Shown here piece after piece: positions 44,942 through 50,009 of a DNA stretch of 57,786 nucleotides. Both the position numbers and the translations under genes were made by a program. The first letter of the stretch is position 1. Each line of letters begins with the position of its first letter. Below the pieces are notes generated by a model. The model did not search any database, was not told the origin of the DNA, and saw only the letters and a list, made by a program, of their open reading frames with translations. This stretch comes from Megasphaera sp. (GTDB lineage: Bacteria > Bacillota > Negativicutes > Veillonellales > Megasphaeraceae), in NCBI GenBank assembly GCA_022649055.1, contig JALCNL010000001.1, positions 1 to 57,786 on the forward strand, given 5' to 3'.

Positions 44942-46336
44942 TTATATATTTTTTTTATCATTCCGGACGAATGGAGATTTGCAGGCTGTTCCTTTATTTG
45001 ATGGTCCGCGGGCTAACGAAGCAAATATTCCTATAAAACAGGTAAAAGAAAGAATAACAAAGGACCAATGAACTCCCTGTGTAATAGCTTGTTCATAATT
45101 ACTTAAATACGTCGTTGTATGGACAAAAATTAAACTTACTGCAGCCATACTAATTGCTTGTCCTAATATCCGCATCAGAGCTAAGACGGAAGAAGCAATA
45201 CTATGCTGTTTTTCCGGTGCAGCCGTTAAAATGGCACTCGTATTAGGAGTCACAAAAAGTGCAGCACCTATACCTAAAAAAATTAAAAGCAATATTGTCA
45301 AAGCAATTGAGATATTCGGTAAAAAAGCGAATAAAAATAAGCAGAAAGCGGTAAGCGCCATTCCCATAGAGGCAATATATCTAGGCTCATGTCGATCCGC
45401 TAAGGAGCCAGCTTTTGTTGAACAGATAGCCATTGTAATCGGATGAATCAGTAAAATAAAACCCGTACTGGCTGCATTGAGATGTAATACCAGCTGCAGT
45501 TGGAAAGATAGTAAAAATGAGATTGCATAGGTAGCACTATAGTGTGCTAGTGAAGCTAGATTTGACATGGAAAAAGCAAGGTTATGAAATAGGGATAGCG
45601 GAACAATAGGGTAGGAAATTTGTTTTTCATGCCAGAGAAATACGATGATTAAGATAAGGCCTGTAAAAAACATATATTTTCCTATGGACATACTGGTAAA
45701 TGCGGATATCCCGTATATGGTACAAATAATAGCAGTCATACTGAGCAAGCTTCCTGTCCAATCAAACCGTGTTTCCTGTTCGCCGAACCATTCTTCCTGT
45801 ATGGCGGCCATGCAAATATAGGCGAAAAGTAACGCAAAAAATGAGAAAAAGAAGACAGCACGCCACGATACATATTGTGTCAAGATACCGCCTATGAAAG
45901 GACCGGCCGATAAGCCGAGATAGGTAGAAGCAGAACTGATTCCTATAACCTTTCCTTGTTCTGCTGGATGACTTTCCAGTAAAAGTGGCAGATAGGAAGC
46001 AAAGACCAGGGATAATGCAACACCCTGAAAGGCACGAAAACCAATCAGCAGAAAAATTGTTGGAGAACATGCGGCACCCAATGTAAATATGGCAAAAGCA
46101 ACAACTCCAATCATAAAACTGTGACGACGCCCTAATGTGTCAGATAATTTACCGCAGGGTAAAAGAGTAGCGGCGGTGCTGAGTAGGAATACCGTTATGA
46201 TCCAGCTGAGCTGAGTAGCGGGCATAGCAAATTCGGAAGCCATTGTTGGAATAGCAACATTGATAGAACTAGCCATAAACGGACCGACGAAACAAGTTAT
46301 ACAAGTTGCTGTAAGAATGCGCCGGGAAGTATTCAT
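44942..46336 (-). CDS. MFS exporter (DHA2-like)
   Basis: The protein has 464 residues with about 14 membrane segments. Family motifs include VAIPTMASEF in the first helix, GKLSDTLGRRHSFMIG (loop 2-3, about residues 62-77) and GPFIGGIL (about residue 150, motif C of drug exporters). It probably exports a drug or toxic compound using the proton gradient. Its start overlaps the sensor kinase stop by 4 nt, so the two-component system and exporter are one unit. The C-terminus is long and basic. Confidence 0.85.
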   Translation of the reverse strand: MNTSRRILTATCITCFVGPFMASSINVAIPTMASEFAMPATQLSWIITVFLLSTAATLLPCGKLSDTLGRRHSFMIGVVAFAIFTLGAACSPTIFLLIGFRAFQGVALSLVFASYLPLLLESHPAEQGKVIGISSASTYLGLSAGPFIGGILTQYVSWRAVFFFSFFALLFAYICMAAIQEEWFGEQETRFDWTGSLLSMTAIICTIYGISAFTSMSIGKYMFFTGLILIIVFLWHEKQISYPIVPLSLFHNLAFSMSNLASLAHYSATYAISFLLSFQLQLVLHLNAASTGFILLIHPITMAICSTKAGSLADRHEPRYIASMGMALTAFCLFLFAFLPNISIALTILLLIFLGIGAALFVTPNTSAILTAAPEKQHSIASSVLALMRILGQAISMAAVSLIFVHTTTYLSNYEQAITQGVHWSFVILSFTCFIGIFASLARGPSNKGTACKSPFVRNDKKNI

Positions 46337-47778
46337 ACTATAGCCTCATTTTTTGTGTAAATTGGGAAAACCGCTATTACGGTGGTACCAATATGGAGAG
46401 TACTTTCCAATTGCAATTTTGCACGATTGCTCTTAGCAATGTATTTAGCAATGGAAAGTCCCAATCCGGAACCGCCAGTTTCTTTTGTTCTGGATGAATC
46501 CACGCGATAAAACCGCTCAAATACACGATGCAAATCCTTTTTTGGAATACCGATTCCCGTGTCTCGCACTTTAAAATATACTTTGTTTTCTTTGATTTCA
46601 CAGGATAAATATATAAATCCCTCAGCGGGAGTATATTTAATCGCATTATCGATAAATATGCGCAGCATTTGTTTTACGCTGCCTGGTTCGGCATAAATTA
46701 ATGCGGATTCGTTTTTTTCAAGAATAATTGCAGGGTGAGCGGATATAAGAGAGGCTGCGTTATATACGTCTTGTAATAGATTGGCCGAGTTTGTTATTGC
46801 AAAGTGTTCAGATAACGTGCCGCTGTTAGAACGGGCGAAAAATAACAAGCGTTCGATGAGTTGGCGCATGTAATCTGTTTCGGATTTAATTGCTTCGATA
46901 CCTTCTGCTAGTGTGTCAGGGTCGTTTTTCCCCCAGCGGTCCAGTAAATCTACATATCCGGAAATAACTGTAATAGGTGTACGCAGTTCGTGAGAAGCAT
47001 TGCTGATGAATTGTTGCTGCTGCTTATATCCATATTCAATACGGTCCAATGTTTTATTAATGGTCAGGGCTAAATCATAAATTTCATTTTTTTCGTTGGA
47101 TAACGTGATACGTTTACCTAATTTATTTACTTCAATATTTTTTACTGTGTCCCTGATTGTATTTAGCGGGGCTAAGGATTTTTTCATGACATAAATGCCG
47201 GAAAGAATTGTTAAAACTAAACTGATAAGGATAGAAGCTAACAGTTGTTTTGATAAAAGTGTGAGAAATGCGTTTTCTCTTGCGGCTCGCCGGGAAAAGC
47301 ACAGATAATATCGCTGTCCGAGAGGATCATCCCATTGGCGGTAATATGAAAACCGGGTGGATTCATTTCCCTGTATCGTATCAGGCAGCGATTTGGCATC
47401 GTTATGTTTAATGTATTCGTCAAGATAGCGGTCACTTAATTGTTTGACTGCATACGTGGGACTGTTGTCGAGAATCAGTTTTCCTGACGCGTCATATACT
47501 TGCAAATTAGTAAACGGCGGCAATTTGGAATAGATGAAAATGGAGGTATCCATTTTTTTGTGAGTATCCAAGTAAGCCAGTGTTGTTTTTGAACTAGATA
47601 ACAAATCTTTGCCGATAGAATCTGTTATAATATAATGAACACTGGCTACTGTGATAATTGAGACAATCAATAAAATAAAAAAAACAATGACTGAATATAG
47701 TAATACCATACGGGCAAAAATCGGTAATGGGGATAGGGAAAATATACGATGTAGTTTTTCGTTAATCTTTGGCCACAT
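46333..47778 (-). CDS. Sensor histidine kinase
   Basis: The protein has 481 residues. Two membrane spans (about residues 22-47 and 178-200) surround an outer sensor domain of 130 residues. A HAMP domain follows, then the H-box SNASHELRTPITVI (about residue 262) with the phospho-His, the N-box FIDNAIKYTP, and G-boxes GTGIGIPK-like (DTGIGIPKKD) and GGSGLGLSI. It should phosphorylate the response regulator encoded just upstream; their genes overlap by 17 nt. The linked MFS exporter suggests it senses a toxic compound or envelope stress. Confidence 0.9.
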   Translation of the reverse strand: MWPKINEKLHRIFSLSPLPIFARMVLLYSVIVFFILLIVSIITVASVHYIITDSIGKDLLSSSKTTLAYLDTHKKMDTSIFIYSKLPPFTNLQVYDASGKLILDNSPTYAVKQLSDRYLDEYIKHNDAKSLPDTIQGNESTRFSYYRQWDDPLGQRYYLCFSRRAARENAFLTLLSKQLLASILISLVLTILSGIYVMKKSLAPLNTIRDTVKNIEVNKLGKRITLSNEKNEIYDLALTINKTLDRIEYGYKQQQQFISNASHELRTPITVISGYVDLLDRWGKNDPDTLAEGIEAIKSETDYMRQLIERLLFFARSNSGTLSEHFAITNSANLLQDVYNAASLISAHPAIILEKNESALIYAEPGSVKQMLRIFIDNAIKYTPAEGFIYLSCEIKENKVYFKVRDTGIGIPKKDLHRVFERFYRVDSSRTKETGGSGLGLSIAKYIAKSNRAKLQLESTLHIGTTVIAVFPIYTKNEAIV

Positions 47779-48445
47779 ATCCGACGCCTCGGATCGTAAA
47801 TATATATTTTCTACCTACTGTTTCATCAATTTTACTGCGGATATATCGAACATAGACATCGACAACATTTGTGTCACCGATATAGTCATATCCCCAGACT
47901 TCTTCTAAGATGCGGTCACGCGTCAGTACGATGTTTTTGTTGCGGACTAAATAGGCCAATAGTTCAAATTCTTTTTTAGTCAGTGTAAAAACATTATCGT
48001 CTACTTGGACTTCATGCCGGTCTAAATATAAAATCATATTTTGTAGTTGGAGAAAATTTTCACTTAGTCGTTCGGAACTTCGTTTTCGCAATAGAACCCG
48101 GATGCGGGCAAATAATTCTCTGCTATTAAAAGGTTTGGTTAAATAATCGTTGGCACCTAAATCCAATCCGGCTACTTTGGTTTCGATATCGTCTTTTGCA
48201 GATAGAATTAGAATGGGGACGGCGGACATTTCACGAATTCGTTGACAAATACTGAGACCGTCTATGTCGGGCAGCATGATGTCTAAAAGAATTAAATCAA
48301 AGTGGTCTTGACCTATGCGATCTAAAGCACTGATTCCGTTATGTTCGATAATACAGTCGTAACCTTCATGCTCTAATTCGAGCTGCAAAAAACGACCAAT
48401 TCGTTTTTCGTCTTCTACAATTAATACGCGATTCTTAATATTCAT
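47762..48445 (-). CDS. OmpR-family response regulator
   Basis: The protein has 227 residues. The receiver domain has LIVEDEKRIG at the start, the phospho-Asp in LILLDIMLPD (about residue 55) and the Lys in YLTKPF (about 105). The C-terminal winged helix ends DVYVRYIRSKID and GVGYVAKD, as in OmpR/PhoB proteins. ATG 48445 has AGGAGGC upstream; an earlier in-frame ATG does not. It regulates, together with the kinase, probably the MFS gene in the same operon. Confidence 0.9.
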   Translation of the reverse strand: MNIKNRVLIVEDEKRIGRFLQLELEHEGYDCIIEHNGISALDRIGQDHFDLILLDIMLPDIDGLSICQRIREMSAVPILILSAKDDIETKVAGLDLGANDYLTKPFNSRELFARIRVLLRKRSSERLSENFLQLQNMILYLDRHEVQVDDNVFTLTKKEFELLAYLVRNKNIVLTRDRILEEVWGYDYIGDTNVVDVYVRYIRSKIDETVGRKYIFTIRGVGYVAKD

Positions 48446-48601
48446 TAATAAAGCCTCCTGCAATATAGATATAGAATTAATCAATTATATACACTATTAT
48501 ACATGAAGTATGCGTTTTTTGATACTCCAATTTGCTTATTAGTAATTATAGATTGGTTAAAAATGAAAATAAATTTTAATCAAATTTTAATTTTTAAACA
48601 A

Positions 48602-48629
48602 TTTACTTTTTGAGTATTTCTGTTACAAT
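48602..48629 (+). promoter_or_regulatory. Extended -10 promoter of the small RNA
   Basis: TTTACT (48602-48607), a 16-nt spacer and TGTTACAAT (48621-48629, TGn plus TACAAT) form an extended -10 promoter. It places the transcript start near 48635. Confidence 0.65.
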
Positions 48630-48634
48630 AGACA

Positions 48635-48786
48635 CGTAGAAAGAATAATCTACGACATGTTTCAAGATATAAGTTGTTCAATACCCCTCGAACACCCCTA
48701 TCTTATATCTTGAAACATTGAGATACTGTCTTCCCCCGATAGTATCTTACATGGAAAGGATCAGCTCCCCTCGCTGGTCCTTTTTT
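48635..48786 (+). ncRNA. Candidate small regulatory RNA with three CCCC-bearing hairpin loops
   Basis: No ORF is present. Four stems follow a promoter. The first is CGTAGA/TCTACG (48635-48654). The second is a perfect 17-bp stem, ATGTTTCAAGATATAAG (48657-48673) with its complement (48702-48718), topped by an inner TGTTC/GAACA stem with loop AATACCCCTC and an unpaired CACCCCTAT. The third is AGATACT/AGTATCT (48721-48747) with loop TTCCCCC. The terminator hairpin (48756-48783) has loop TCCCCTC and a T run. C-rich loops can pair with G-rich ribosome sites, as in the UCCC-loop sRNAs of Staphylococcus. No family name is claimed. Confidence 0.7.
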
Positions 48787-48813
48787 CTATAGGAAAATTA
48801 AAAAAAGATGGTA

Positions 48814-48874
48814 TTGACAGCATGGTTTCTTGTGTTCTATACTATTAATTAGTTGAAATATAAACTAATTAATA
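48814..48874 (+). promoter_or_regulatory. Promoter and palindromic operator of the MarR gene
   Basis: TTGACA (48814-48819) and TATACT (48838-48843) have an 18-nt spacer. TATTAATTAGTT (48843-48854) and AACTAATTAATA (48863-48874) are exact inverted repeats with an 8-nt spacer right after the -10, ideal for MarR self-repression. Confidence 0.8.
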
Positions 48875-48889
48875 GAAAGGAGAAAACAT

Positions 48890-49342
48890 ATGAGGTTAGA
48901 TAATACTATACTTCGTAATATTGGAGCATTGTCTCGCAGTATTCACTCCATTAATGATATTTATTTTAAAAAATATAATTTACAGCGAAGCCAATTTATT
49001 TTTCTCACCAGGATATGTGAAAATCCGGGTATTAACCAGATTTCACTTTCTAATATGCTGAAAGTGGACAAGGCGACGACTACTAAAGCAGTACAGAAGT
49101 TGATGGCAGAAGGGTATATAACAAAAGAACGCAATGCTTTTGATAGGCGTGAATGGAATTTGTATCCTTCAGAAAAGGCAAGACAAATATATATATGTAT
49201 TATCGCTGAAGAAAATCGGGATATTGCTATTTGCTTTTCTGGATTTAATGATGTGGAGCGTCAAACTGTTTGTACATTACTGGAGCGAATGGCAAATAAT
49301 ATAGGACAAGAATGGAAAAAATATAAAAGTTATAAAATATGA
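48890..49342 (+). CDS. MarR-family regulator
   Basis: The protein has 150 residues. The winged-helix signature is clear: QFIFLTRICENPGINQISLSNML (about residues 36-58, seen as ICENPGINQISLSNML), then VDKATTTKAVQKLMAEGYI (KATTTKAVQKL is the recognition helix) and the wing NAFDRREW. AGAAAGGAG precedes the ATG. It probably represses its own promoter through the palindrome directly upstream and thereby the acetyltransferase gene 19 nt downstream. The ligand is unknown. Confidence 0.9.
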   Translation: MRLDNTILRNIGALSRSIHSINDIYFKKYNLQRSQFIFLTRICENPGINQISLSNMLKVDKATTTKAVQKLMAEGYITKERNAFDRREWNLYPSEKARQIYICIIAEENRDIAICFSGFNDVERQTVCTLLERMANNIGQEWKKYKSYKI

Positions 49343-49361
49343 TCAGAAAGGGGATGGCATC

Positions 49362-49880
49362 ATGGAATTGCGGTTGGCACAAGCAAACGATGTAAATAAA
49401 ATACATGAAATTATTATCCAAGGGCGTAATTTTTTAAAAAAATGTGGTGTAAATCAATGGCAGAATGGATATCCTAATAAAGAGGATATTATAAAGGACA
49501 TTGAAAAACAGACAGGATATATACTATATGATGCTGGAAAGATTGCAGCCTATGCTTGTATTGATTTTGACGGGGAACCGGCCTATGATAATTTAAAGGG
49601 AACATGGCTGGATCAAAATGAGTATGCTGTTATTCATCGTATGGTAGTGGATGATAGTTATAAAGGGCAAGGCCTGGCCAAACAATTTTTTGAACAAATT
49701 GAGACATTTGTGTATGCCAGAGGTATTTTATCAATTCGCGTGGATACGGATAATGATAATAATATTATGAAACATTTAATAGAAAAATCAGGATATGTAT
49801 ACTGTGGTACTATTTGGTTCGATAATAGCGTAAAAATTGCATACCAGAAGCAACTAGTGCTGGATAAAAGACAATGTTAA
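49362..49880 (+). CDS. GNAT-family N-acetyltransferase
   Basis: The protein has 172 residues. The acetyl-CoA-binding motif A is VIHRMVVDDSYKGQGLAKQFFEQIE (seen as VDDSYKGQGLAKQFF, about residues 101-115), preceded by the strand IAAYACIDFDGE. A C-terminal LIEKSGYVYCGTIWF completes the fold. GAAAGGGG lies upstream. It forms a two-gene unit with the MarR regulator, so it may modify the compound that MarR senses. The substrate cannot be read from the sequence. Confidence 0.85.
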   Translation: MELRLAQANDVNKIHEIIIQGRNFLKKCGVNQWQNGYPNKEDIIKDIEKQTGYILYDAGKIAAYACIDFDGEPAYDNLKGTWLDQNEYAVIHRMVVDDSYKGQGLAKQFFEQIETFVYARGILSIRVDTDNDNNIMKHLIEKSGYVYCGTIWFDNSVKIAYQKQLVLDKRQC

Positions 49881-50009
49881 TGACTGTCTTTTAAGGCCAA
49901 AACAGTATGTATCAGAGTTCATTGACTTTTTTATTATTTCGTGCCATAATGAAAATCATCAAGGGGAAGGTAACTTTTCCTACGAAATATTTTTTGGAGG
50001 TGAAATAGA

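Follow-up and report, generated by a model that had tools for sequence, protein, structure and literature searches.

A conserved small RNA gene with four C-rich loops in Megasphaeraceae and its proposed control by a neighbouring two-component system

Does the intergenic DNA that separates two regulator genes in Megasphaera encode an RNA of its own, and if it does, what would control this RNA and on what would it act? The question is raised by a stretch of 57,786 nucleotides (57.8 kb; hereafter the window) at the start of contig JALCNL010000001.1 of Megasphaera sp. (assembly GCA_022649055.1), in which a sequence-only reading had proposed a small RNA (sRNA) that presents three C-rich loops and could mask ribosome sites. 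The gene in question (48636-48787, plus strand, about 150 nt) is flanked by a divergent response-regulator gene (47762-48445, minus strand) and a MarR-type gene (48890-49342, plus strand). Judged by comparison with related genomes it is a real and conserved, free-standing gene, predicted to be transcribed independently, for a structured RNA, as its folding z-score, its homologues in 12 other genomes, the covariation of its stems and their G-U wobbles indicate.

A structured RNA gene conserved across Megasphaeraceae

The region 48636-48787 folds as four stem-loops with a minimum free energy of -59.1 kcal/mol compared with -23.3 ± 3.3 kcal/mol for dinucleotide shuffles (z = -10.75, 0/200), and the homologues in relatives give folding z-scores of -6.1 to -9.2. 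The 5' end was inferred, about 7 nt past the -10 element. A short 5' hairpin GUAGA/UCUAC (48636-48653), paired in all genomes and with 12 of 18 columns invariant, is followed by hairpin 1 (48656-48718), which has an outer stem, an inner stem UGUUC/GAACA, an apical loop with ACCCCUC and an internal loop CCCCUAU. Hairpin 2 (48719-48749) carries the loop UUCCCCC, with UCUUCCCCCGAU identical in 13/13 genomes and compensatory changes at 4 pairs, and the gene ends in a G+C-rich Rho-independent terminator (48753-48786) with the loop UCCCCUC, a U-run and 5 pairs with compensatory changes. Unpaired CCCC is thus presented at four places, and of the 33 occurrences of CCCC on the plus strand of the window 5 (overlapping) fall within the 152 nt of the RNA. 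The three C-rich loops of the sequence-only reading, including that of the terminator, are all present, but it had missed the fourth tract in the internal loop of hairpin 1, as well as the regulator-type promoter repeat and the linked two-component system described below. Its perfect 17-bp stem is real in the window species (AUGUUUCAAGAUAUAAG paired with CUUAUAUCUUGAAACAU) but peculiar to it: the counterpart in relatives is interrupted and partly variable, and the loops are the conserved portion.

When 60 relatives were searched at the DNA level, the region turned up in 12 genomes besides that of the window, and all of these belong to a single family. A covariance model was positive in 13 of 17 Megasphaeraceae genomes, with one copy each (E <= 1e-34), and in none of 44 genomes from other families of the order; the four negative Megasphaeraceae are assemblies of 1.6-1.8 Mb. 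We found no paralogues in the window genome, and weak second matches within the family, considered as paralogues or distant homologues, were set aside as they resemble terminators of other genes or chance matches.

In the alignment of the 13 genomes 30 of the 31 columns of the hairpin 1 loop segment (48674-48704) are invariant, as are all 12 of the hairpin 2 loop, that is 97-100% compared with about 18-20% for the linkers, the 3' part of stem 1 and the terminator stem, and 0% for the promoter spacers and the DNA downstream of the RNA. All four C-tracts are present in 12/13 genomes, the exception being one locus (L005) where the terminator loop is replaced and its C-tract lost. Pairing is kept in 98.5% of alignment cells with compensatory changes at 10 pairs, a number reached by 0/500 shuffles, whereas slid controls gave 40-54% pairing and at most 5 compensatory pairs; the outer stem of hairpin 1 covaries as well. 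The relatives served for the check that the sequence-only reading had itself named, covariation and conservation of its loops and stems, and this did not refute it: the loops are near-invariant and the stems covary. Stems that vary with pairing kept while loops stay fixed are what one would expect of an RNA that acts through its loops. The stems contain 66 G-U cells versus a single A-C cell, which fixes the RNA on the plus strand. A minus-strand transcript with CsrA-like GGGG loops was ruled out by this wobble count together with the polarity of promoter and terminator. No short open reading frame is conserved across the alignment, and the 18-codon frame of the window is not conserved.

The gene is preceded by two elements that a promoter scan picks out: a -35-like TTTACT (48602-48607), where the stretch 48601-48610 has 9 invariant columns out of 10, and an extended -10 element TGTTACAAT (48621-48629) with 6 of 9 invariant columns, 0 of 10 columns being invariant in the spacer upstream of it. 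The extended -10 had been announced by the sequence-only reading and lies just outside the range it quoted. On the 3' side the neighbours vary: a MarR and a GNAT gene in the genus of the window species, a ferredoxin gene and lspA in most others, and unrelated genes in one genome (G006). As the downstream genes change while the RNA persists, it would act in trans and not as the leader of one gene. The general marks of a trans-acting bacterial sRNA are seen in the comparison: own promoter and terminator, no conserved open reading frame, conserved structure and independence from the flanks.

Two alternatives bear directly on these data. A leader or attenuator acting in cis on the downstream gene would account for a terminator placed ahead of the next co-directional gene. 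Besides the exchange of downstream genes among genomes, a separate promoter-like site at 48814 (TTGACA-18-TATACT) precedes the MarR gene of the window, the ferredoxin gene of the relatives likewise carries one, and no conserved alternative antiterminator pairing was found in the RNA; we consider a cis-acting role very improbable. Chance inverted repeats, or a functionless and degenerate mobile hairpin element, are favoured by the AT-rich setting only, and run against the folding z-score, the orthologous single copy in 13 genomes, the conserved promoter, loops and covariation, the lack of paralogues in the genome and the absence of the RNA core from viral contigs. We take this explanation as already refuted by the conservation.

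Two observations concern the downstream genes themselves. The MarR and GNAT genes (window 48890-49880) stand between the RNA and the ferredoxin gene only in the genus of the window species, and close relatives of the MarR protein are found in Clostridioides and Pelosinus; the genus-limited insertion together with these relatives suggests that the pair was gained horizontally. The 5' untranslated region of the ferredoxin gene (window 49890-50009; loci L033-L043) holds a short hairpin in which a G-run is paired with a C-run. Its sequence differs between species with the pairing apparently kept, and it possibly stabilises the mRNA.

A promoter repeat and the neighbouring two-component system

Upstream of the -35 element lies a direct repeat, TTTAAT-CAAAT-TTTAAT (48575-48592, plus strand), with an 11-bp period, at about -61 to -44 from the transcription start. 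We read it as a putative box for a response regulator of the OmpR family. It is kept in all 13 RNA-positive genomes, with 11 of 18 columns invariant as compared with 0 of 8 in the adjacent downstream base pairs, and one locus (L008) has three repeat units in a row. A degenerate form of the pattern occurs 57 times in the 13 positive genomes versus 9 times for a reversed-pattern control, about 13 of the 57 being the RNA promoters themselves; the corresponding counts are 2 versus 0 in the four RNA-negative relatives and, for eight genomes taken from other families of the order, 9 versus 8. Enrichment is thus seen only where the RNA is present. The repeat also precedes addB (G000, G001), a 2-thiouracil desulfurase gene followed by a signal-peptidase-like gene (G000, G001, G005), an OPT transporter gene (G004, G005, G008) and UPF0102/yraN (G006, G008). 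Recurrences of TTTAATC-N4-TTTAATC (loci L044-L063) include G000 C40:9797 and C80:5713, G001 C54:25606 and C55:39919, G005 C2:2485648, G004 C1:1325360, G008 C112:83938 and G006 C3:154494. Since the repeat stands before these several genes it behaves as a regulon motif, and the predicted regulon that it marks is conserved and uncharacterised.

The divergent neighbour of the RNA gene encodes a response regulator of the OmpR family (Pfam Response_reg and Trans_reg_C) that we propose as its activator, and its partner in the two-component system, a membrane sensor histidine kinase (Pfam HisKA and HATPase_c), follows at 46333-47778, also on the minus strand. Orthologs of the regulator with at least 67% identity are present in 13/13 RNA-positive genomes. 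Those of the kinase, with at least 57% identity, are found in 12/13 (the region is N-masked in the 13th) and in 0/4 negative relatives. The two genes adjoin the RNA in most genomes and are relocated in two (G004 and G006), where the repeat remains with the RNA and the promoter of the relocated regulator is without it. The recognition helix of the regulator, VVDVYVRYIRSKI as read from its sequence, is similar to the one in CiaR, VVEVYVSKVRKKL, and CiaR binds the box TTTAAG-N5-TTTAAG (PMC3091779). The co-occurrence of repeat enrichment, RNA and orthologs, together with this CiaR-like helix, makes it likely that the neighbouring regulator controls the RNA.

Comparison with known C-rich regulatory RNAs

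A search of Rfam 15 gave no family at gathering score for the RNA of the window or of five relatives, in accordance with the earlier description of an undescribed RNA in Negativicutes. The only matches at E <= 10 were hairpins of unrelated families and FsrA, the latter very weak (11.2 bits against a cut-off of 80), with LhrC not among them. In Staphylococcus aureus RNAIII, RsaA and RsaE, and in Bacillus subtilis FsrA, use C-rich (UCCC) loop seeds to bind Shine-Dalgarno sites, and RNAIII adjoins the operon of its regulator. A list of UCCC motifs for RNAs of this type is found in PMC4132741, and for low-GC Gram-positive bacteria there is ample documentation of Shine-Dalgarno binding by C-rich loops (PMC4132741). 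Unlike these RNAs, that of Megasphaera matches no Rfam family.

The closest likeness is to LhrC of Listeria, whose CU-rich loops, including that of the terminator, bind G-rich Shine-Dalgarno sequences under control of the two-component system LisRK (PMC4132741). LhrC1-5 of Listeria monocytogenes and the Megasphaera RNA share redundant C-rich sites with one in the terminator loop (in 12/13 genomes for the latter), and expression of LhrC, which has a promoter element upstream of -53, depends on a two-component system (PMC4132741), a dependence that we propose for Megasphaera, where repeat, co-occurrence and adjacency fit it. They differ in copy number (five versus one per genome in 13 genomes) and show no similarity at the level of Rfam; moreover, of the four C-tracts in the Megasphaera RNA three sit on two long hairpins, and the tracts read CCCC(U/C) with no U-run partner. 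LhrC itself was ruled out as an identity by the single copy and the lack of a sequence match.

The streptococcal csRNAs, which are under control of CiaRH, are similar in their direct promoter repeats of the same spacing (TTTAAG-N5-TTTAAG versus TTTAAT-N5-TTTAAT in Megasphaera), in an OmpR-type regulator, a proposed one in Megasphaera, and in that unpaired regions are complementary to ribosome sites (PMC3091779). However, the invariant G of the CiaR repeat is T in Megasphaera, and the CiaR repeat (NTTAAG-N5-TTTAAG) lies 10 bp before the -10 whereas that of Megasphaera lies 32 bp before it, upstream of a recognisable -35. The csRNAs carry anti-Shine-Dalgarno and anti-AUG sequences in an unpaired middle between two stem-loops, as opposed to C-tracts in hairpin and internal loops with no conserved CAU beside all of them, and they occur in several copies per genome in a distant branch of Firmicutes. 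A csRNA identity was ruled out by the sequence and position of the repeat and by the missing anti-AUG. The Megasphaera RNA may work like LhrC and the csRNAs while being unrelated to them in sequence; we regard it as a new family of sRNAs whose presumed mechanism is of a known type.

We propose that the response regulator, whose gene is the divergent neighbour except in two genomes, would bind TTTAAT-N5-TTTAAT upstream of the -35 and activate transcription of the RNA upon a signal sensed by the kinase, probably envelope or other stress. The rigid hairpins of the RNA would then present four C-tracts that, by analogy, would make the first contact with the G-rich Shine-Dalgarno regions of several mRNAs, and this contact would block ribosome loading. 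Masking of ribosome sites is proposed because the anatomy of the RNA matches that of Gram-positive C-rich RNAs, above all LhrC. We give this reading, a trans-acting sRNA induced by a two-component system and masking G-rich ribosome sites, a probability of about 0.7. Comparative evidence is good for the gene, its structure, strand and promoter and moderate for the regulator; expression, regulator binding, signal, antisense action and targets are inferred.

Candidate targets and competing readings

The sequence-only reading had called G-rich ribosome sites common in the window, which overstated the case as GGGG stands upstream of only 6 of the 46 starts checked. Beyond single sites, GGGGTAT-type ribosome sites showed no general enrichment over control, and a single long antisense target was rejected: in 7 genomes no match to the loop complement with fewer than 3 mismatches exists besides the RNA gene. 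Genes that recur with a GGGGTAT-type site, mostly among close relatives, encode an NlpC/P60 peptidase and uracil-DNA-glycosylase-like, CysN-like, LptB-like ABC and LarA-like proteins (names read from sequence, NlpC/P60 excepted). For the NlpC/P60 wall peptidase AAAGGGGTATT is found before the start in six genomes of three lineages (G002, G003, G008, G010, G011 and G014), and GGGGTAT is the exact complement of the loop AUACCCC. Sites of the form AGGGGTAT were also observed before the uracil-DNA-glycosylase-like gene in G002, G003, G010 and G011 (loci L120, L125, L128 and L145) and before the CysN-like gene in G008, G010 and G011 (loci L129, L130 and L138), making both possible candidate targets.

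Several results weigh against the proposed role. Target prediction against the start regions of the window, suggested by the sequence-only reading, gave 7 of 46 regions pairing at -13 kcal/mol or below compared with 8.1 ± 2.7 for composition-matched shuffled loops; of the trans-acting regulator it had put forward as a candidate, the conserved, flank-independent gene with invariant C-loops stands, but the real loops pair in the window no better than shuffled ones. The seed AGGGGTAT before ATG was not enriched over control in the RNA-positive genomes. The window species lacks the NlpC/P60 site and has AAGGGAGC instead, and in G002, G003 and G014 the loop reads ACACCCC without a matching change at NlpC/P60, which spoils the fit; the peptidase is the best recurrent target candidate and only partly consistent with the prediction. 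On the side of the regulator, relatives with 52-53% identity occur in three RNA-negative Megasphaeraceae genomes (L089, L090 and L091), in another neighbourhood (ruvC beside two of them) and with neither repeat nor RNA, and the assignment of the repeat to the neighbouring regulator rests on co-occurrence inside one clade.

If the RNA is real and acts on mRNAs, another regulator could bind the TTTAAT repeat, the two-component system being a neighbour and nothing else. The genomes have several OmpR-type regulators, and the loss of adjacency in G004 and G006, with no repeat at the promoter of the relocated regulator, would fit such a case; repeat enrichment, RNA and the ortholog of at least 67% identity are nevertheless found in the same genomes, and the helix VVDVYVRYIRSKI is like VVEVYVSKVRKKL of CiaR, whose box has the same spacing (PMC3091779). 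We judge this unlikely, though worth serious consideration. The partner of the C-rich loops could also be a protein, for which the RNA would serve as sponge or scaffold, in place of the ribosome sites of mRNAs. Four near-identical C-tracts on rigid hairpins recall the repeated-site layout of protein-titrating RNAs, the near-total invariance across 31 nt includes paired bases, and the target enrichment was not found. Against this, the GGA displayed by CsrA sponges is missing from the loops of the plus strand, the strand that the wobble pairs fix, and we know of no C-rich-binding regulator of this kind in Firmicutes. C-rich loops that bind Shine-Dalgarno sites, by contrast, are documented for low-GC Gram-positives (PMC4132741), and we regard protein binding as improbable.

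The preferred reading, of an sRNA induced by a two-component system and masking ribosome sites, bears on bacteria that are common in the rumen, the gut and the vagina, namely Megasphaera and other Negativicutes, for which a literature search found no described regulatory RNA of the C-rich-loop kind. Going further, we tentatively speculate that in Negativicutes the RNA could be a convergent counterpart of LhrC and the csRNAs, unrelated to them in sequence. Present in one copy and equipped with four nearly identical C-seeds, it would be the main post-transcriptional arm of the uncharacterised two-component regulon in which addB, the 2-thiouracil desulfurase gene, the OPT transporter gene and others share its promoter repeat, and in these diderm Firmicutes it would tune the mRNA of a cell-wall hydrolase among others. 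The finding would give the Negativicutes a well-supported sRNA family together with a regulator hypothesis, a promoter motif and a regulon, and would be a clear case for the convergent evolution of C-seed RNAs under two-component control.
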